Assembly (NCBI RefSeq): GCF_030818415.1
Contig: NZ_JAUTAE010000001.1
Coordinates: 2,153,501 to 2,217,500, forward strand
Source of the DNA: Sphingomonas sp. SORGH_AS_0950
GTDB lineage: Bacteria > Pseudomonadota > Alphaproteobacteria > Sphingomonadales > Sphingomonadaceae
DNA: 64,000 nucleotides
Direction of reading: 5' to 3'
In this document: positions 33,300-41,856 of the stretch, one piece after another
Layout of the letters: the number at the start of each line of letters is the position of its first letter
Position numbering within the stretch: the first letter of the stretch is position 1
Notes under the pieces: generated by a model
Seen by the model: only the letters and a program-made list of their open reading frames with translations
Told to the model about the DNA's origin: nothing
The model's database searches: none
Made by a program: the position numbers and the translations under genes

Positions 33300-33375
33300 G
33301 CCGCTTTAGCTCAGCTGGTAGAGCATCGCATTCGTAATGCGGGGGTCACAGGTTCGAGTCCTGTAAGCGGCACCA
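33300..33375 (+). tRNA. tRNA-Thr (anticodon CGU)
   Basis: A 76-base cloverleaf with acceptor ends GCCGC and GCGGC, D-loop AGCTCAGCTGGTAGAGC, anticodon loop TTCGTAA (CGU) on stem CGCA/TGCG, T-loop GGTTCGAGTCC and an encoded CCA. It reads ACG codons. Confidence 0.97.
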
Positions 33376-33812
33376 TCCCCCAAAAAACATTGAAAAAGCA
33401 ATCGCTTGGGCAACAGCCTCGTGCCGATCGTAGCCCGCTGGTGTTGCCCTGCCTCTTGTCATGTGGCTTGACGCAAACATTTCGGTCTGACCGCTCGATT
33501 GATGGATGGGGAGCCTTTGCAGTCCCGACGCTCGGCTCCGCGATTGCGGGCAGGCCTGCCAGGCCTTGACGCAGGCCGGAAGATTTCCCCGCTCTTGCCT
33601 CAGCGGGCATAGGGAAGTTGCGGAGCATCGCCGTCATCACGGCCGCCCACTCGCGCCACGTCGTCCCGTAACGCGAAGCGACCATGCCCCTTTCGCCCAC
33701 TGACCGAAACCAGCCGTATACGATCGTTCGGATATAAGGTGGTCCGGTGCCGACTCCGTCCCTGTGATGACGGAGGTGATCGTGCGCTTCGTCGATGCGA
33801 AGGACCTGACCC
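33376..33812. other. Intergenic region with no gene recognised
   Basis: After the tRNA there are 437 bases with no convincing gene on either strand. They contain a perfect 12-base palindrome (GGCAGGCCTGCC, 33549-33560), and a motif GAAAC (33705-33709) 15 bases before CGTT (33725-33728). The latter resembles an ECF-sigma promoter and is followed by TATAAG, about 85 bases before the first small exported ORF. Confidence 0.5.
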
Positions 33813-33935
33813 ATGACGCTTCCTGCCCTGACGCTGGCGACCGGCGCCCTTTGCGTGTCGGGCTCCGCGAGCGCCATCCCGGTGGGCGGCGCCCATGCCG
33901 GTCCGGGTGTCCATAGCCAGGGAGAGGGCCGTTGA
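33813..33935 (+). CDS. Small exported peptide, 40 residues
   Basis: ATG 33813 has AAGGA 9 bases upstream. The product begins MTLPALTLATGALCVSGSAS and ends with a Gly/His-rich tail. It looks like a signal peptide (cleavage near SASA-IPV) with a mature part of about 19 residues. Its TGA overlaps the TTG start of the MlaA-like gene (TTGA), as in coupled translation. Function not known; it may be a leader peptide. Confidence 0.4.
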   Translation: MTLPALTLATGALCVSGSASAIPVGGAHAGPGVHSQGEGR

Positions 33936-34858
33936 TCGCATTGTCGCTGGTCGCGATACTGGCGACCCCGTCGCTGCCCGTGCAGCGATCGGTGTCCCTG
34001 CCGCCGGATTTCGAGGCGGCCTCGATCGCGATCGAGGATGTCCATGCCTTCACCCCGCCCGAAGCCGCCGCCGCTCCCGCAACCGACAGCGACGCCGGCG
34101 AGGCGGAGGAGATCGTGGTGACCGCGAGCCGGCACCGCGCGAGCGATCCGCTGCGCGCGGTGAACGCCGCCGCCTTCGCACTGTCCGAGAAGGTGGACGA
34201 CGCCATCCTGGAGCCCGCCGCCCATGTCTATGAGCAGGCCGCGCCACGGCCAGTCCGCACCGGGCTGCGCAACTTCTTCGCCAATCTGCGCGAGCCGGTC
34301 GCCTTCGTGAACTTCCTCCTTCAGTTCAAGTTCGGCAAGGCGGCGGAGACGGTGGGCCGCTTCGCGATCAACTCGACGATCGGGCTGGCGGGGGTCGTCG
34401 ACATGGCGCGCCGGTGCCCCTTCCGTCTTCCGCGCCGCCCCAACGGCTTTTCGGACACGCTGGGCTTTTATGGCGTCAAACAGGGACCCTTCCTGTTCCT
34501 GCCCCTGCTCGGGCCGACCACCTTGCGCGATCTCGTCGGCGGTGCGGTCGACGGCATCGCTTCGCCGGTCGCGATCGGGGGGCCGTTCCGCAACCGCGCC
34601 TATATCGTCATCAGCAACGTCGTGCGGACGCTCGATCGCCGCGTCGAGATGGATGAAGAGTTGCGCGAGATCAGCGAACAGCCCGATCCCTATGCTGCCA
34701 GACGGGATCGCTATCTCGACCAGCGCGAGGCGCGGGTGCGGCGATTGAAGGGGCTGGGCGACCCGGACGCCGTGGTGGAGGAAACGCCCTATGGCCAGGT
34801 CGATCCGTCCGCGCCCCTCCCTGCCTGCCCGCGCCGGAAGGCCAGCCATGCGGGATGA
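33932..34858 (+). CDS. MlaA-like protein without a lipobox
   Basis: A 308-residue protein starting at TTG. Residues about 70-270 match MlaA/VacJ: ALSEKVDDAILEPAAHVYEQ, PRPVRTGLRNFFANLREPVA, RFAINSTIGLAGVVDMA, GFYGVKQGPFLFLPLLGPT and TLRDLVGGAVDGIASP. MlaA normally forms a ring in the outer membrane and removes misplaced phospholipids. Unusually the N-terminus has no Cys: MIALSLVAILATPSLPVQ, so it would not be acylated. A segment EEIVVTASRHR just before the MlaA domain matches the N-terminal TonB-box region of sphingomonad receptors. The C-terminus has an extra charged tail (RDRYLDQREARVRRLKGL). Confidence 0.85.
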   Translation: MIALSLVAILATPSLPVQRSVSLPPDFEAASIAIEDVHAFTPPEAAAAPATDSDAGEAEEIVVTASRHRASDPLRAVNAAAFALSEKVDDAILEPAAHVYEQAAPRPVRTGLRNFFANLREPVAFVNFLLQFKFGKAAETVGRFAINSTIGLAGVVDMARRCPFRLPRRPNGFSDTLGFYGVKQGPFLFLPLLGPTTLRDLVGGAVDGIASPVAIGGPFRNRAYIVISNVVRTLDRRVEMDEELREISEQPDPYAARRDRYLDQREARVRRLKGLGDPDAVVEETPYGQVDPSAPLPACPRRKASHAG

Positions 34859-34967
34859 TCGCCCCTGCCCCGCTGCCTTCGAAGCGCAGGATCGCGGAGC
34901 CCCCGCCCCGCTCCTGTCCCACCCGGCATGCCGCCCCGTTCCGGGCGGCTGGATCATAGGACGACCG

Positions 34968-35063
34968 ATGCGACTGATCGCTCTTTGCCTGACCTCTCTC
35001 CTCCTCTCGGCCACGCTGATCCCGAACACCGCGCATGGACAGGGTTGGACCTGGAACGGGTGA
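34968..35063 (+). CDS. Small exported peptide, 31 residues
   Basis: Starts at ATG 34968 with AGGA upstream: MRLIALCLTSLLLSATLIPN then THGQGWTWNG-like tail (TAHGQGWTWNG). The first 25 residues look like a signal peptide, leaving QGWTWNG-type mature peptide. An in-frame start at 34848 overlapping the MlaA-like stop would give 71 residues. Function unknown; weak gene-level evidence. Confidence 0.3.
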   Translation: MRLIALCLTSLLLSATLIPNTAHGQGWTWNG

Positions 35064-35179
35064 CGGACCTCGCCGTCGCGATTCAAAGGCAATGCCCCTT
35101 TCGCTCCGTCTGCTGAGTGAAGGCAGCGTGAAAAGCCCGCGCGCGGATCAGGGGCAGGCGGATGAAGGACGGGTATGTG

Positions 35180-35557
35180 ATGGATCGACTGGCCTATGTC
35201 GCGACGGGATTGCTGATATGCGCGGGCGTACCGGCGCTGATCCTGACCAGCGCGGAAGCCTTTCCGCAGGTGAGCGTACAGGCGCCCGAGACCGGGGCGT
35301 GCCTCCGCACCGGCGGGGTCAGCATCCTTGTCGACGGCACGCCCTATTGCCGCCAGCCAAATCGCCCCGCCATCGACGAGCAGCATTTCCCCCGGCCACG
35401 GCCAGGCATCGCGGTCATGTCCAACCCCGCCAGCGCCTATTGCGAGGAGCTGGGCGGCACGCTGGAGACGGTGGACGCGCCGGACGGCCAGACGGGTTAT
35501 TGCCATTTGCCGAGCGGCGCGGTGGTCGAGGAATGGGCGCTGTACCGTGGCCGGTAA
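35180..35557 (+). CDS. DUF333 domain protein, exported (single module)
   Basis: A 125-residue protein with signal peptide (DRLAYVATGLLICAGVPALI). The C-terminal DUF333 module is NPASAYC, 19 residues, C, then HLPSGAVVEEWALYRG. The two Cys are 20 positions apart, the same spacing as in the three-module protein downstream. A second Cys pair (GACLRTGG and TPYCRQ) lies before it. DUF333 proteins are often called putative hemolysins, but no haemolytic activity is supported by sequence. A start at 35162 would place residues before the signal peptide. Confidence 0.82.
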   Translation: MDRLAYVATGLLICAGVPALILTSAEAFPQVSVQAPETGACLRTGGVSILVDGTPYCRQPNRPAIDEQHFPRPRPGIAVMSNPASAYCEELGGTLETVDAPDGQTGYCHLPSGAVVEEWALYRGR

Positions 35558-35708
35558 CCGCCATGGGGCCGCGATGCTGCGGCAGGACTTTTGCCATGCA
35601 GGGGATCACGCCCCGCCGCCCGCCCGCATGCCTCCGCGGCGGGTGACGGCCGCGAATTCCTTTTTCAACGATCCGTCACTAAGGAGTTCGATACGATTCA
35701 CTCCCATC

Positions 35709-36224
35709 ATGTCGGTGTCGATGTCATCAAGCGGGCTCGAAGCAGTCTATCTGGCCAACCGCGACAAACTTGTCCGGTTCCTGGTCGCGCGCGGTGCGGG
35801 CGATTCCGCCGAAGACCTGGTGAATGATCTTTGGCTAAAGATTTCAACACTTTCGCCGGGACCGATCGCCAATCCCATGTCCTATCTGTTTCGCGCCGCC
35901 GATACGTTGATGATCGACCGCTATCGGGCGCGCCGCCAGGCGGAGCGCCGCGACCAGGACTGGTACGACCTGAGCAGCGACGGCGAAACCTCGGGCGAAC
36001 CGGCGGGCGAGCGGGTGATCGGCGCGCAGCAGGAAGTGACCAGGGTGGCGGCGGTGCTCGCAAAGCTGGGCGCGCGTCGGGAAACGATCTTCCGCCGCGC
36101 CCGGATAGACGGCGTGTCGCAACGACAGATCGCGACCGAACTCGGCGTCAGCCTCAGCACGGTGGAGGCGGATCTGCGGATCGCCACGCGCGCATTGATC
36201 GAATTGAAGGAAGACCTGCGATGA
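35709..36224 (+). CDS. RNA polymerase ECF sigma factor (FecI-like)
   Basis: A 171-residue sigma factor. Region 2 includes AVYLANRDKLVRFLVARG, AEDLVNDLWLKI and MSYLFRAADTLMIDRYRARR; region 4 is RETIFRRARIDGVSQRQIAT then ELGVSLSTVEADLRIATRAL, a helix-turn-helix. It is followed by FecR and a receptor with a signalling domain, so it should act at the promoter of this surface-signalling locus. The start is uncertain: ATG 35709 or 35721, with no clear ribosome site. Its stop overlaps a 14-codon ORF by ATGA. Confidence 0.88.
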   Translation: MSVSMSSSGLEAVYLANRDKLVRFLVARGAGDSAEDLVNDLWLKISTLSPGPIANPMSYLFRAADTLMIDRYRARRQAERRDQDWYDLSSDGETSGEPAGERVIGAQQEVTRVAAVLAKLGARRETIFRRARIDGVSQRQIATELGVSLSTVEADLRIATRALIELKEDLR

Positions 36225-36265
36225 GCATCTCCCACGCCATCGCGATCGAGGACAAGGCACGATGA
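36221..36265 (+). CDS. Bridging mini-ORF of 14 codons between sigma factor and FecR
   Basis: ATG 36221 overlaps the sigma-factor stop (ATGA). The ORF encodes MSISHAIAIEDKAR and its TGA overlaps the ATG of fecR (ATGA, 36262). A strong ribosome site GAAGGAAG lies 7 bases before ATG 36221. It may simply be a translational relay, ensuring stoichiometric sigma and anti-sigma synthesis; no peptide function is implied by sequence. Confidence 0.45.
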   Translation: MSISHAIAIEDKAR

Positions 36266-37218
36266 CCGGCAGGAAGGTCGAGGACCATGCACTGGATTGG
36301 GCCATCCGTGTCGCCGATCCCGATTTCGACGATTGGGACGGGCTGACCGCATGGCTGGAAGCCGATCCGCGGAACCCGGACCGGTATGACGATGCGACGG
36401 TGGCCATCGCCGAGGCACGAGACCGCGTCGCGGCCCTGCCCGTCCACACGGCCCCCGCCCCAGCCACGCCCGTCCAGCCCGTGCCGGTCGCCGCCAATGA
36501 TGCCGGCGCGGCGCGGCGTGGCTATTGGCGCTGGGGCGGCGGGGCCGTCGCCGCGATGCTGGCCGTGGTCGTCGGCACCTCGGTCTGGAACGGCCGGTCG
36601 CAACCCTATGCGGTGGAAACCCGCCCCGGCGAGCAGCGCGCGATCGCGCTGGCCGATGGCAGCCAGATCATCATGGCGGGCGGCTCGCGCGTGACGCTGG
36701 ACCGCGCAAACGCACGGGTGGCGGTCGCGGATCGTGGCGAGATGCTGTTCCGGGTCCGGCATGACGCGGCGCATCCCTTCCGGGTGACCGCCGGGGAGAC
36801 GACGATGGTCGATCTGGGCACCGTCTTCGACGTGAAGCGCGATCCGCAGCGGACGCGCGTCGCGGTGGCGGAGGGCGCGGTGATGATCGATCCGAAGGGC
36901 GCGGGGCTTCGGCTCGATCCCGGTCAGGCGGTGGTGGTGACGGGCGGCCGCTCCTTCCGTCGCGAGCGCGCCGAGGATGTCGGGGGCTGGCGCGAAGGGC
37001 GGGTGACCTTCGACGGCGCATCCCTGTCCGACGTCGCCCGCGATCTCAGCCGTCAGATGGGCCATGCCGTGCGCGCCGACGCCTCCGTCGCCGATCGGCT
37101 GTTCAGCGGCACGGTCGATCTCCGCTCGCTGAACGACGATCCGGCGCTGCTGGGTCGCCTGCTGGCGGTGAATGTCCGGACGGACGGCCAGACCTGGGTG
37201 CTGGGCGGCGATCGGTGA
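36262..37218 (+). CDS. FecR family anti-sigma factor
   Basis: A 318-residue protein. The N-terminal domain (ALDWAIRVADPDFDDWDGLT then AWLEADPRNPDRYDDA) is the DUF4880/FecR_N cytosolic part that contacts the sigma factor; a single transmembrane helix is near residue 95 (AAMLAVVVGTSVW); the periplasmic FecR domain follows, with RPGEQRAIALADGSQI and GTVFDVKRDPQRTRVAVAEG. The C-terminal region (LFSGTVDLRSLNDDP) is STN-like and should meet the receptor's signalling domain. Its stop overlaps the receptor's GTG start (GTGA). Confidence 0.93.
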   Translation: MTGRKVEDHALDWAIRVADPDFDDWDGLTAWLEADPRNPDRYDDATVAIAEARDRVAALPVHTAPAPATPVQPVPVAANDAGAARRGYWRWGGGAVAAMLAVVVGTSVWNGRSQPYAVETRPGEQRAIALADGSQIIMAGGSRVTLDRANARVAVADRGEMLFRVRHDAAHPFRVTAGETTMVDLGTVFDVKRDPQRTRVAVAEGAVMIDPKGAGLRLDPGQAVVVTGGRSFRRERAEDVGGWREGRVTFDGASLSDVARDLSRQMGHAVRADASVADRLFSGTVDLRSLNDDPALLGRLLAVNVRTDGQTWVLGGDR

Positions 37219-39665
37219 GGCCGGCCGCCGGGTGGGTCGCGGTCGGGCTGTTGACGACCGCGACCGCGACGTCTGCCGCCGCCGCCGCGCCGACGCTGGC
37301 GATCGATCTGCCCGCCGGCAGCGTCAGCAGCCAGGTGCTGGCGCTGGGGCGGCTGGGCGGCGTCAGCGTCGTGGTGACCGACGCGCGGCTATGGGGAAAG
37401 CCGGTGCCCGCGCTGCGCGGACGGATGACCGTGCTCGCCGCGCTGCGCCTGATCGCCGCGCGCTGCGGCGGCGCGGTCGAGCCGATCGATGCCGCGATCT
37501 TCCGGCTGGTGCCGGGCCGCGCAGCGGCGCGCCGCACGCCCCCGCCCAGACCCCGGCCGCCCGCCCCGGCACCCGCGCCTCCCGCCCCGCCCACGCCCGA
37601 TATCGTCGTGGTGGCCAGCAAGCGCGACCTGCCCCTCGATCATGTCGCGGGACAGATCATGCGGATCTCCGGGCGGGATCTGGAATTCGGCGGCGCCGGA
37701 GGGACGGAGCGGCTGACCTCTCGCCTGTCGACCCTGGCGTCGACCTATCTGGGGGCCGGGCGCAACAAGCTGTTCATACGCGGCATCGCCGATTCCAGCT
37801 TCACCGGCCCGACCCAGGCGACCGTCGGCCAGTATTTCGGCGACCTGCGCCTGGGCTATAATTCCCCCGACCCCGATCTTCGGCTGGCCGATCTGGCGGC
37901 GGTCGAGGTGCTGGCGGGGCCGCAGGGCACGCTGTACGGTGCCGGTTCGCTCGGCGGCCTGATCCGGCTGGTTCCCAATCCCGTCGAGCTGGACCGCACC
38001 GGCGGATCGGTCGCGGTGGGGGCCTCCGCCACCAAGCATGGCGCGCCGGGATATGACGCGCAGGGGGTGCTCAACCTGCCGGTCGTGACGGATCGGCTGG
38101 GCATCAGGCTGGTCGCCACGGCGGTCGAGGAAGGCGGTTACATCGACAAGCCGCTGCTCCGTCGCCACAATGTCAACACCACGCGCATCGCGGGCGGGCG
38201 CGGCACCGTGCACCTGAAGATCGCCGACCATTGGAGCGCCGAACTGATCGGGATCGGCCAGCGTATCCGCGGGGCCGACAGCCAATATGCGGATTGGAAC
38301 GGCGTGCCCCTGACGCGCAACACCAGGGTCGTCGAGGGGTTCGGAAGCGACTTCCGTCAGGGCCAGTTCGTGCTGAACGGCCGGATCGGAGAGGTGCGGT
38401 TCAGCTCCTCGACCGGCATCACCGCACATGACCTGACCGAACGTTACGACGCGACGGTGGCGGGCGACGATCCGACGGTCTTCCTCCAGACCAACCGGAC
38501 GCGCATGTTCGCCAACGAGACGCGCGGCTGGGTCACGCATGCCGACGGATCGGGCTGGCTGCTGGGCCTGAGCTATACCGACAATCGCTCGCGGCTGTCG
38601 CGCGCCTTCCTGTCGCTCGGCGACCGCCAGCAGCTTCCCGGCGTGTCGAACGCGGCGCAGGACGCCACCGCCTATGGCGAGGCGAGCGCGCGATGGACGA
38701 AGAGCCTTTTGGTGACGGGCGGCTTGCGCGTGAACCGATCGGTGCTGACGGGGGCGGCCGAGGACACGCTGGTGCAGAGCGGGCCCGAGGTAGGGGCGAC
38801 GCTGGCCTCGCGACGGAAGCTGTCCCTGCTGCCCTCCGCCTCGGCCCTGCTGGACGTGGGGGCCGATGCCGCGATGTTCCTGCGCTATCAGCAGGGGTTT
38901 CGGCCCGGCGGGTTGACGATCTTCGACGGCTATGTCCGCCGCTTCAACAGCGATCATGTCGCGACGATCGAGGCGGGCTATCGCCTGGGTCACGCCGGGC
39001 GAAGTCCATTCGCCTTCTCCCTCACGGTCGCGCATACCGACTGGCGCAATATCCAGGCCGACTTCGTCGATGCGGGCGGCCTTTTGTCCACCGCCAATGT
39101 GGGCAATGGCGACATCTGGACGGTGGAGACGACCGCCTCCGCGCGGGTGGCGAAGGGGCTGCGGGTCGACGCCGCGCTCTCGCTCAACGACAGCAGCATC
39201 AACGAACGCACCCCGAAATCGTCCACGACCGACGACGTGGTGAGCGCAGGCGCGGGCGCTGGCGGGGGCGCTGGCGGGGGCGCTGGCGGGGGCGCTGGCG
39301 GGGGCGTGACGGCGCGGCTGGGGCCCATCCCGAACATCGCCAACGTCACCGCGCGCATCGGGCTGTCCTATGATGCCGCGCTATCCGATCGCACGCGGCT
39401 GAAGGTCGATGGCTGGGCCCGCTATGTGGGCACCTCGCGGCTCGGGGTCGGACCGGAACTGGGTGAGGAGCAGGGCAATTTCCTCGACAGCGGCCTCACC
39501 GCCCGGCTGGGATGGGATCGCTTCGGCCTGACGGCGGGCGTGACGAACCTGACCGATACGCGCGGCAACCGCTTCGCGCTGGGAACCCCCTTCTTCACAG
39601 GCAAGGGACAGGTCACACCGCTGCGCCCCCGGACCTTCCGCATCGGGCTGGACGCCGCTTTCTGA
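37215..39665 (+). CDS. TonB-dependent receptor with N-terminal STN signalling domain
   Basis: An 816-residue outer-membrane receptor. Signal peptide, then an STN domain (residues about 25-100: LAIDLPAGSVSSQVLALGRL), a Pro-rich linker (PPPRPRPPAPAPAPPAPP), TonB-box region DIVVVASKRDLPL, plug (VEVLAGPQGTLYGAGSLGGL) and a 22-strand-type barrel ending in FRIGLDAAF. The STN domain transmits ligand binding to FecR. The ligand is unknown; nothing identifies a siderophore type. A 12-bp tandem repeat encoding AGGG units lies in an extracellular loop region near residue 680. The GTG start overlaps fecR by four bases. Confidence 0.93.
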   Translation: MRPAAGWVAVGLLTTATATSAAAAAPTLAIDLPAGSVSSQVLALGRLGGVSVVVTDARLWGKPVPALRGRMTVLAALRLIAARCGGAVEPIDAAIFRLVPGRAAARRTPPPRPRPPAPAPAPPAPPTPDIVVVASKRDLPLDHVAGQIMRISGRDLEFGGAGGTERLTSRLSTLASTYLGAGRNKLFIRGIADSSFTGPTQATVGQYFGDLRLGYNSPDPDLRLADLAAVEVLAGPQGTLYGAGSLGGLIRLVPNPVELDRTGGSVAVGASATKHGAPGYDAQGVLNLPVVTDRLGIRLVATAVEEGGYIDKPLLRRHNVNTTRIAGGRGTVHLKIADHWSAELIGIGQRIRGADSQYADWNGVPLTRNTRVVEGFGSDFRQGQFVLNGRIGEVRFSSSTGITAHDLTERYDATVAGDDPTVFLQTNRTRMFANETRGWVTHADGSGWLLGLSYTDNRSRLSRAFLSLGDRQQLPGVSNAAQDATAYGEASARWTKSLLVTGGLRVNRSVLTGAAEDTLVQSGPEVGATLASRRKLSLLPSASALLDVGADAAMFLRYQQGFRPGGLTIFDGYVRRFNSDHVATIEAGYRLGHAGRSPFAFSLTVAHTDWRNIQADFVDAGGLLSTANVGNGDIWTVETTASARVAKGLRVDAALSLNDSSINERTPKSSTTDDVVSAGAGAGGGAGGGAGGGAGGGVTARLGPIPNIANVTARIGLSYDAALSDRTRLKVDGWARYVGTSRLGVGPELGEEQGNFLDSGLTARLGWDRFGLTAGVTNLTDTRGNRFALGTPFFTGKGQVTPLRPRTFRIGLDAAF
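39255..39302 (+). repeat. 12-bp tandem repeat within the receptor gene, four copies
   Basis: GGCGCTGGCGGG occurs four times in a row (39255-39302) and partly a fifth, encoding GAGG repeats. Since the unit is 12 bases, copy-number change alters loop length in frame. Confidence 0.9.
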
Positions 39666-39851
39666 CGATTGTTTTTACGGTATCGGCCGTACCGCTCCGT
39701 CATCCCCATTGCCCGGCCTCGAACGCCGACCGTCGAATACCGGCGAGCGGTTCATTCAGCTACCGGCAATACGAAGGAAGGAATAACCCGTCTTCGGAAT
39801 GACAATCTCCATGACGGGAAAATTCCTGGCCTCGTTGGGAAGGACAAATAT

Positions 39852-40442
39852 ATGAAGCTCAAAGTATTTCTGATGACCAGCCTGGTGTCCGCGGGCGCGG
39901 CCATGCTTGCGACTCCCGCCCAGGCGCAGGCCAATAGGCAAGGCATCGCCAATCCCGCCTCGGAATATTGCGTCTCGATCAAGGGAACCTCATTCTCGCG
40001 CAAGACGCCATCGGGCGAGATCGGCTATTGCCGGTTGCCCAACGGCCGGACTGTGGAAGAGTGGAAGCTGTTCCGCGAAAGCCAGAAGCGTCCCCCGGCC
40101 CCGAAGCCGCGTAACGACGCGTCCATGGCCAATCCCGCATCGGTCTATTGCGACAAGATCGGCGGCACCAACATCGACCGCCACACGCCGCAGGGCGATG
40201 TGGGGCTGTGCCGCCTGCCCAATGGCAAGACGGTCGATGCCTGGGCGCTGTACCGCCGCGACGAGGGCAAGCCCGCCCCGGCCCGCCGCGATCGCATCGG
40301 TCTCGCCAATCCGGCATCGGGTTACTGCCTGAAGCAGAAGGGACGCCTGGAAATGCGCGAGGGACCGGGCGGCACGACGGGCTATTGCCATCTGCCGAAC
40401 GGACGCGTCGTGGAAGAATGGCGCCTGTATCGCGAGCAGTAA
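39852..40442 (+). CDS. Exported protein with three DUF333 modules
   Basis: A 196-residue protein with signal peptide (cleavage near AQA-QAN, residue 26). Three modules follow, each starting NPAS-x-YC: residues 34-75, 94-135 and 153-194. Within each, two Cys are exactly 20 positions apart (C40/C60, C100/C120, C159/C179), and the second is followed by RLPNG or HLPNG and a closing EWxLYR or equivalent. Linkers are Pro/Lys/Arg-rich (PPAPKPR and PAPARRDR). Ribosome site GGAAGGA is 7 bases upstream. Unlike the annotation often given (putative hemolysin), no toxin motif is present. It lies 186 bases after the receptor gene, followed by a strong terminator. Confidence 0.85.
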   Translation: MKLKVFLMTSLVSAGAAMLATPAQAQANRQGIANPASEYCVSIKGTSFSRKTPSGEIGYCRLPNGRTVEEWKLFRESQKRPPAPKPRNDASMANPASVYCDKIGGTNIDRHTPQGDVGLCRLPNGKTVDAWALYRRDEGKPAPARRDRIGLANPASGYCLKQKGRLEMREGPGGTTGYCHLPNGRVVEEWRLYREQ

Positions 40443-40475
40443 TCGGTCAGGCTCGCCAGGAGCCTTTGTGAATAG

Positions 40476-40505
40476 CGGCCGCGCGTTTCGACGCGCGGCC
40501 GTTTT
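40476..40505 (+). terminator. Rho-independent terminator after the DUF333 gene
   Basis: CGGCCGCGCG pairs with CGCGCGGCCG over a 6-base loop and is followed by TTTT. It ends the run of surface-signalling genes. Confidence 0.88.
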
Positions 40506-40687
40506 CGTTGCGTCATGGGCCGTTCCGAGACAGCAACGACCAAGCAGAAAATTCTCCCGCCAAGTTTTTCAAAAAAATTTTCCGGGGACCCAAGGCATAT
40601 TGGAAATGGTGTCGTCTTGCGAGTGTAGGGGGACGCAGACTGGTGCAGCCCACTCGAAACAAGATTCATTTCGAAGGACGATTTTCC

Positions 40688-41455
40688 ATGACCCTGGTTA
40701 GCACGTTCGCGGCCGCTCGTCTCGGTGCGTACCGGTATTCGACGGCCCTGGCCGTCAGCATGATTGCCACCATCGCAGCCGTTGCCCCCGCGGCCGCGCA
40801 GCAGTCCGAACCCGGCCCCTATGCCGTCGCCCGCGCCGGCGTGCAGGTCGACTCGGACGTCAAGACCAACCGGGTGCTGGCCAAGGGCCAGACCGTGTCG
40901 AAGACGGCGCCGACGCTGCCCAAGAATATCGACAACAATTCCGGCTTCACCGGCGAACTGGGCCTGGGTTACGACTTTGGCGGGTTCCGCCTGGAAGGCA
41001 CGGCGGGTTACGACACCGCCAGCGTCAATCCCAAGGCCCTGGGCGACAAGAATTATGTCGCAGGCGGCCGTGCCAAGTCGTTCGACCTGGGCGTCTCGGC
41101 TTATGTCGACCTGATCCAGGACGGCCCCCTCAAGCCGTTCGTCGGCGGCGGCATCGGCGCCTCGCGCGTCAAATATTCGGCCTATCGCGAAGCGCGCAGC
41201 GCCAATCCCGGCACGCTGAAGCCCAGCGCGGACATCGTCGGCACCGACTGGGGCTTCCGCTGGCATCTGGACGCGGGCGTCAGCTATGACGTGGCGCCGA
41301 TGACGTCGATCGAAGTGCTCGGCCGCTATGCGAAGACGTCGGGCCTGCGGATGAAGGGCGTGACGCTCGATCAGGATCTCAGCCGCTCGACCACCGACTA
41401 TAAGCTGAAGAGCTCGTCGACCTCGCTCATGATCGGCCTGCGCCAGAAGTTCTGA
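40688..41455 (+). CDS. Outer-membrane beta-barrel protein (surface-antigen type)
   Basis: A 255-residue protein. An extended signal peptide ends near AAAQQ (residue 40), then a barrel domain like OmpA/P44-Msp2 small porins: YAVARAGVQVDSDVK, FTGELGLGYDFGGFRLEGTA, DLIQDGPLKPFVGGGIGASR, and a terminal IGLRQKF ending in Phe, the usual BamA signal. Ribosome site GAAGGA lies 8 bases before ATG 40688. It has its own terminator and is separated from the DUF333 gene by another, so it is transcribed alone. A structural role is likely. Confidence 0.85.
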   Translation: MTLVSTFAAARLGAYRYSTALAVSMIATIAAVAPAAAQQSEPGPYAVARAGVQVDSDVKTNRVLAKGQTVSKTAPTLPKNIDNNSGFTGELGLGYDFGGFRLEGTAGYDTASVNPKALGDKNYVAGGRAKSFDLGVSAYVDLIQDGPLKPFVGGGIGASRVKYSAYREARSANPGTLKPSADIVGTDWGFRWHLDAGVSYDVAPMTSIEVLGRYAKTSGLRMKGVTLDQDLSRSTTDYKLKSSSTSLMIGLRQKF

Positions 41456-41476
41456 TCGCACGCCGACCCGATGCGA

Positions 41477-41516
41477 AGGCGCCGTCCCTGCTCCGGCCGG
41501 GACGGCGCCTTTTTTT
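41477..41516 (+). terminator. Rho-independent terminator of the barrel protein gene
   Basis: AGGCGCCGTCCC pairs with GGGACGGCGCCT over about 10 bases and is followed by TTTTTT. A classical strong terminator. Confidence 0.95.
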
Positions 41517-41537
41517 GCATGGCGGATCCGCGCCCCG

Positions 41538-41696
41538 TCAGTCGGTGCCCCGCTCCTCCGGCGGCGTGTCGCGCGGCGGGGCGGCGGGGGCGGGGGCGGG
41601 GGCGGGGGTGTCCAGCCCCCTGGCCTGGGCCTTGCGACGTTTCAGATTTTCCCGCAGCTGCGCCGCCAGCCGTTCCGCGCGTTCGTCTTTTGTCAT
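41538..41696 (-). CDS. Small basic/proline-rich protein, 52 residues
   Basis: ATG at 41696. The product starts MTKDERAERLAAQLRENLKR, RKAQARGLD, and ends in a PAPAPAPAAP stretch and PPEERGTD. It resembles a short family of hypothetical proteins in sphingomonads. The N-terminal part is helical and Arg-rich. The coding stretch includes a repeated GGGGGC run. Function unknown. It sits between the barrel protein terminator and the tRNA. Confidence 0.6.
   Translation of the reverse strand: MTKDERAERLAAQLRENLKRRKAQARGLDTPAPAPAPAAPPRDTPPEERGTD

Positions 41697-41781: not shown

Positions 41782-41856
<75 letters not shown>

Follow-up and report, generated by a model that had tools for sequence, protein, structure and literature searches.

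Receptor-sigma signalling of the Fec type has been studied mainly as iron regulation, PUMA3 being one exception. In PUMA3 (VreA/VreI/VreR) of Pseudomonas aeruginosa, a surface-signalling sigma factor controls secreted proteins and secretion systems, most of them encoded beside its own locus, and VreA is listed as transducer-like in its N-terminal half (PMC2729926, available part). A non-iron output of surface signalling is not new, since PUMA3 is a surface-signalling system for secreted factors. In the Has arrangement, sigma factor, anti-sigma factor and receptor are accompanied by a secreted carrier (PMC9249621, available part), and surface-signalling regulators are activated by proteolysis, release of the sigma factor by FecR proteolysis being known for Fox (PMC11637429, available part). 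Among open-licence papers, we found no published description of this receptor-sigma family or of an exchangeable output with one common element across sphingomonads; in a paper on sphingomonad TonB transporters (PMC7142613), sigma factor, FecR and autotransporter are absent from the text.

Here we describe a locus of Sphingomonas sp. SORGH_AS_0950, contained in a window of 64,000 nucleotides (the whole stretch of DNA analysed; G000:C1:2153501-2217500, G000 being this genome). Judging from gene order and upstream DNA, the locus is quite probably a non-iron cell-surface-signalling cassette of a large sphingomonad family with exchangeable outputs, which here would be a DUF333/barrel output together with an MlaA output of this strain.

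Gene content of the locus

The following genes are read directly from the DNA:

33813..33935, + strand: short exported-looking peptide of 40 aa (by eye), with a stop codon overlapping the TTG at which the MlaA frame starts
33932..34858, + strand: MlaA-family protein (PF04333, 198.8 bits, cut-off 25)
34969..35063, + strand: a further small peptide of 31 aa that looks exported (by eye)
35162..35557 (start 35162 or 35180), + strand: DUF333x1, exported-looking, one DUF333 domain (81.9 bits, cut-off 25)
35709..36224 (start 35709 or 35721), + strand: ECF sigma factor (TIGR02937, 52.7 bits, cut-off 42.9)
36262..37218, + strand: FecR-type sigma regulator (PF04773, 68.2 bits, cut-off 24)
37215..39665, + strand: TonB-dependent receptor with an N-terminal STN-like signalling domain
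39852..40442, + strand: DUF333x3, exported-looking, three DUF333 modules (211.7 bits, cut-off 25)
40688..41455, + strand: outer-membrane beta-barrel protein (OMP_b-brl, 40.9 bits on a longer frame, cut-off 28.7)

Pfam and the reading frames recover every gene named in the preliminary description, in a single direction (33813-40442); its list nevertheless left out the barrel gene at 40688-41455, which is the next gene in 6/6 loci of this type. The sigma factor also matches Pfam Sigma70_r4_2 (33.6 bits, cut-off 25.7), the FecR-type regulator has a membrane span (by eye), and DUF333x1 carries a degenerate module-like stretch upstream of its DUF333 domain (by eye). That the barrel gene is the remnant of an autotransporter barrel finds no support in BLASTP, which gave no significant similarity (best E 3.8). 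No iron-uptake genes were recognised beside the trio formed by sigma factor, FecR-type regulator and receptor. Between 33400 and 41900, the search for sigma-70 promoters returned a single match, inside the receptor gene, and terminator-like matches showed no excess (4 vs 4.5 in shuffles).

Conservation and genomic setting

A search for PF03891, the DUF333 family, gave matches in 18/295 genomes from the genus (that of the window among them) and in 5/396 genomes drawn from the order, 3 of which were already counted, for a combined 20 genomes. In six of these 20 (G000, G025, G059, G068, G334 and G578), DUF333 genes flank a trio; five of the six are in the named-genome scan described below (two Sphingomonas yabuuchiae, S. 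endophytica, an uncultured Sphingomonas and a record labelled Novosphingobium capsulatum). In the remaining 14, no trio was found within the 6-17 kb read around the domain. Wherever DUF333 adjoins such a receptor (6/6 loci), the order is DUF333, sigma factor, FecR, receptor, DUF333 (2 or 3 modules), barrel. With DUF333 in 18/295 genomes and this order in 6/6 linked loci, the core gene order recurs beyond chance. Whether neighbours vary among relatives thus has two answers: the six-gene core is constant in the six loci, while neighbours outside it largely vary, with one gene pair, a few kb upstream, common to the loci of G068 and G059 (L050, L052).

In the window, the block is bordered by two tRNA-Thr genes, at 33300-33375 (cgt) and 41782-41856 (ggt), and comparison with the near relative G025, in which two flanking proteins are near-identical (97%), delimits the following segment:

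33376..41622, no strand: strain-variable segment; the G025 alignment stops at the 3' end of tRNA-Thr(cgt) and restarts just before tRNA-Thr(ggt)

G025 DNA aligns to the window through 33375 and then from 41623 onward, the two anchors lying on separate G025 contigs; its own cassette sits elsewhere in the genome, with a receptor about 71% identical to the window's. Next to tRNA-Thr(cgt), the border of the cassette in the window, G025 has different DNA. It includes a gene with a serine-recombinase-like N-terminus (by eye; L200:14383-16005) that runs up to this tRNA, which suggests an integration hotspot.

Such a setting fits a simpler explanation, namely that the trio is an ordinary iron- or nutrient-uptake signalling unit and that DUF333, barrel and MlaA are incidental hitch-hikers in a tRNA-linked island: the receptor belongs to the TonB-dependent transducers, segment 33376-41622 varies between strains at tRNA-Thr, and conservation does not extend to MlaA or the outer neighbours. 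We regard this as unlikely, given that the core order is kept at different genomic sites and that the same element precedes the cargo genes (see below).

Related trios with other cargo

A named-genome scan for relatives of the receptor kept 80 of 309, and these trio loci fall by cargo into 42 with a downstream autotransporter, 22 with an upstream autotransporter, 5 with DUF333, 5 with Wza-type polysaccharide genes, 3 with ABC-type polysaccharide export genes and 3 with other arrangements. The polysaccharide labels derive from gene lengths and from a Pfam scan of one locus per type (L065, the contig of L185; and L061, outside the 80), in which Wzz scored below and Poly_export above the cut-off. 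A paralogous trio elsewhere in the window's genome has its autotransporter upstream (L053; sigma gene at about G000:C1 1026500). Many upstream-autotransporter trios are accompanied by genes for a GH115 glycosidase, a GDSL lipase and a cupin (L053:145-5092 and 13/80 loci); the promoter-like element described below lies upstream of these genes in none of the 13 loci counted.

A receptor tree built by a quick method from 82 sequences (the 80 relatives plus the window's receptor and the paralog in its genome), with several long branches flagged, places the DUF333-type receptors in one clade (SH-aLRT 100, end branches at most 0.2), sister to the upstream-autotransporter and ABC types. Two records titled Microvirga and Actinobacteria (L153, L192) have receptors nested among sphingomonads and are probably mislabelled assemblies.

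The receptor and its ligand

The receptor has 816 aa and a plug domain (26.2 bits, cut-off 23.9), and aligns nearly over its full length with its relatives. The STN domain claimed for it in the preliminary description stands in modified form: Pfam STN is not found in the window's receptor taken alone, and the signalling domain emerges from its relatives. A profile made from homologous N-terminal pieces (18 of 20 excised pieces aligned) matches the solved signalling domains of FoxA/CntO, FemA and the ferripyoverdine, FecA and ferric-pseudobactin receptors, over most of the domain and with E values of 1e-4 to 1.5e-3; designed TIM barrels score similarly against it, but over just 24 residues. Taken singly, 6/18 N-termini match Pfam STN at E up to 1 (best 0.0009). 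Judged by profile comparison, the receptor N-terminus is therefore a signalling domain. Further along, at 39249-39305 of the window, the receptor has a Gly-rich tract, GAGAGGGAGGGAGGGAGGG, which is missing from three aligned DUF333-type relatives.

The ligand had been proposed to be connected with the envelope or with the DUF333 proteins, and here the comparison points elsewhere. Receptors 58-63% identical to the window's adjoin autotransporters or polysaccharide-export genes, and residues 181-240 at the apex of the plug, a domain parts of which are conserved across TonB receptors generally, show 92-93% identity when the 6 DUF333-type receptors are set against the 23 of upstream-autotransporter type, compared with about 55% over the whole protein. 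We infer that the two types share a ligand: because the plug apex is so alike across types and related receptors adjoin other cargo, one shared cue with different outputs would fit better than a cargo-specific ligand. Alternatively, the receptor could recognise the cargo itself or something that the cargo binds, with DUF333 as a carrier of the HasA type, a scheme compatible with control by the sigma factor. DUF333 genes do lie on both sides of the receptor in 6/6 loci, and Has offers the precedent of a sigma/anti-sigma/receptor set with a secreted carrier (PMC9249621, available part); receptors with the same plug apex nevertheless adjoin autotransporters or polysaccharide-export genes without any DUF333, and we find such a carrier role decidedly improbable.

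A promoter-like element before unrelated cargo

Four promoter-like elements lie upstream of cargo genes in the locus:

33736..33760, + strand: AAGG-N14-CTCCGTC before the peptide/MlaA operon, 77 nt upstream; one of four strict matches genome-wide (control 1)
35086..35110, + strand: AAGG-N14-CTCCGTC before DUF333x1; AAGG-N17-CGTC at the corresponding site in 6/6 loci (GAGG in L116)
39677..39701, + strand: weaker element ACGG-N14-CTCCGTC before DUF333x3, from the alignment of loci
40592..40616, + strand: AAGG-N17-CGTC before the barrel gene; 6/6 loci

In aligned upstream DNA, AAGG-N17-CGTC precedes DUF333x1 in 6/6 loci (as GAGG in L116) and the barrel gene in 6/6, and the weaker element of DUF333x3 shows the pattern in 5/6 loci and is recognised in the sixth (L118) only by alignment. 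A matrix built solely from the 12 DUF333x1 and barrel sites of the six loci, used at a score threshold of 8, is found upstream of 40/66 autotransporter genes, 6/751 other genes, 0/75 sigma genes and 0/80 receptor genes. This is the sole fully independent test of the element, because the simplified AAGG-N17-CGTC was settled on after the autotransporter sites had been inspected and the strict AAGG-N14-CTCCGTC was picked from those sites.

With genes that have fewer than 100 bases upstream dropped, the simplified form precedes 65/66 autotransporter genes vs 7/747 other genes (a Fisher P of 8e-87 overstates independence, because the loci are mutually related), together with 5/5 barrels, 6/79 FecR, 3/75 sigma and 0/80 receptor genes, 6/14 genes next downstream of the receptor, and 4/10 DUF333 genes when the script's start codons are used. 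It is found in 64/64 autotransporter-type loci, and spacing in the autotransporter regions is 17 in 65 cases and 18, 14 and 13 in 2, 1 and 1. Polysaccharide-export cargo is preceded by the same element in 6/8 loci (L140-L142, L161, L185 and L192), and in L158 and L172 the element is not assigned to a gene start. Some small genes could be further targets: an 89-aa gene upstream of DUF333x1 in L120, with the element 55 nt before it, is possibly strain-specific cargo, and opposite-strand 81-aa genes beside the upstream-autotransporter trios of L136 and L151 have it 83-88 nt upstream.

The strict form has 84 matches in the 80 trio loci (1.55 Mb) with 0 reversed, and 0 in 46 comparison loci (626 kb, related genomes); at nine other spacings (10 to 19) it gives 0-1 matches each in trio loci and 0-2 in comparison loci. 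It occurs twice in the window, at 33736 (peptide/MlaA operon) and 35086 (DUF333x1), and four times in the whole genome (control 1); of the other two matches, one precedes the autotransporter of the paralogous trio and one lies within a gene on the opposite strand. At the scale of whole genomes the excess is slight, with 39 matches vs 28 of the reversed control across 20 genomes, so that one or two matches per genome are background; a looser CAAGG-N16-YCGTCT gives 4 matches vs 4 in the control in G000. The seven further pattern matches that were read give a wider regulon little support, although additional targets elsewhere may exist: four lie inside genes (both in G000, one in G025, one in G029), one overlaps a gene end (G025), and two fall between genes, at 282 nt from the start of a gene for 851 aa in G025 and at 54 nt from one for 409 aa in G067.

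Lone DUF333 genes lack [AG]AGG-N17-CGTC upstream in the 17 loci inspected, start codons being uncertain in a few. One such gene lies in the window's genome (G000:C1:2978812-2978946, L068), and similar genes occur in other contexts in several Sphingomonas genomes, without the element upstream.

Could the element be read by some other regulator, common to sphingomonad envelope genes, and not by the adjacent sigma factor? Two paralogous trios of one genome do have it in common, as this would allow. The strict form is absent, however, from the 626 kb of comparison loci, and where the wiring differs, a related form is found where self-regulation predicts it: RAGG-N16-YCGTC precedes FecR in 40/41 downstream-autotransporter loci and 4/4 Wza loci, where sigma and FecR do not overlap, and in 0/5 DUF333, 0/22 upstream-autotransporter and 0/3 ABC loci. 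Another regulator therefore strikes us as a poor candidate, and we infer that the adjacent sigma factor reads the element. On these grounds, this sigma factor likely controls the genes for DUF333, the barrel and MlaA. The earlier proposal of a signalling trio with non-iron cargo is in this respect supported, since the likely targets (DUF333, barrel and the MlaA operon) share one promoter element, which is clear before MlaA, DUF333x1 and the barrel and weak before DUF333x3.

An MlaA operon particular to this strain

The MlaA-family protein scores 104.3 bits against the NF011672 equivalog, below the cut-off of 375, and by eye the N-terminus of the called frame has no lipobox Cys. That MlaA belongs to the conserved unit was rejected: it has no match in G025, G059, G068, G052 and G045 (G334 and G578 being outside that search), and none lies upstream of the core in L050, L051, L052 and L114, while in L095/L116 the contig starts just before DUF333x1. 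In MlaA neighbourhoods elsewhere, 28/29 loci hold MlaA and 0/28 have the element before it. Three loci (L202, L211, L213) have MlaA near a trio of another subfamily; 3/28 is no frequency, as the loci were picked partly for receptor and MlaA matches sharing a contig. The view of MlaA as a mere passenger was reconsidered once the 33736 element came to light: a chance match there is unlikely, because it is correctly oriented before the operon and lies 1.35 kb from another element. The peptide/MlaA operon is thus a probable target of the sigma factor in this strain, outside the conserved unit.

The DUF333 modules

DUF333 (PF03891) proteins are often named 'putative hemolysin'. In predicted structures, each module is confidently modelled as a helix, a hairpin, a short strand and a helix (the third module, modelled alone, has a mean pLDDT of 94.7), and each has two conserved cysteines. 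Fold comparison yielded no usable function, no Foldseek match reaching E 0.001 and no Z exceeding 3.2; against the PDB, the sequence has no match (best E 0.25), and no known peptidase inhibitor is confidently matched by fold or sequence. Among 120 listed relatives (132 found), DUF333 is the lone domain in 98 and is fused to a peptidase-inhibitor domain in 17 by precomputed Pfam labels (I78 in 11, I42 in 5, I9 in 1), of which 8 were rescanned and 8/8 confirmed; elsewhere it is joined to NlpE/META (3), a TPR set (1) or a mycobacterial lipoprotein domain (1). The inhibitor fusions suggest that DUF333 may work as a peptidase inhibitor or in the vicinity of one, and its modules are small units for which binding or inhibition is the likeliest role. 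Because surface-signalling regulators are activated by proteolysis, it is even conceivable, if very improbable, that the DUF333 version secretes a multi-headed peptidase inhibitor as its output and that this inhibitor damps the proteolytic cascade activating its own switch, in a switch slot exchangeable between autotransporter, polysaccharide export and DUF333 plus barrel.

Discussion

Our preferred reading is that of a signalling cassette with a non-iron, exchangeable output. An extracellular ligand would bind the receptor, whose N-terminal signalling domain would relay binding to the FecR-type regulator; the sigma factor, once freed, would transcribe from AAGG-N17-CGTC promoters the peptide/MlaA operon, DUF333x1, DUF333x3 and the barrel gene, and the DUF333x1 transcript may read on into sigma factor, FecR and receptor. 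The products, which are presumably exported, would then alter the cell surface or the surroundings.

The sphingomonad receptor-sigma family appears to be wired to products of the surface or beyond it, one promoter-like element preceding unrelated cargo. What is gained is a named, testable promoter, a sequenced strain in which it has few predicted targets, a way towards the ligand, for which any member of the family may serve, and, for the functionally uncharacterised domain DUF333, a regulatory setting.

While the locus has in common with FecI/FecR/FecA-type systems (Fec, Fox, Pup, Has) an ECF sigma factor, a FecR-domain regulator and a TonB-dependent receptor with an N-terminal signalling domain, there are several differences from described systems: (i), its sigma factor is predicted to act on genes for exported DUF333 proteins, a barrel and MlaA, and no iron-uptake genes are recognised adjacent to it; (ii), unlike other DUF333 proteins, its tandem modules, with a domain score well above the Pfam cut-off, are tied to a signalling trio; (iii), compared with PUMA3, likeness to transducers extends beyond the N-terminal half in this 816-aa receptor, which has a plug as well as a barrel, the cargo belongs to other families, and relatives differ in their output.
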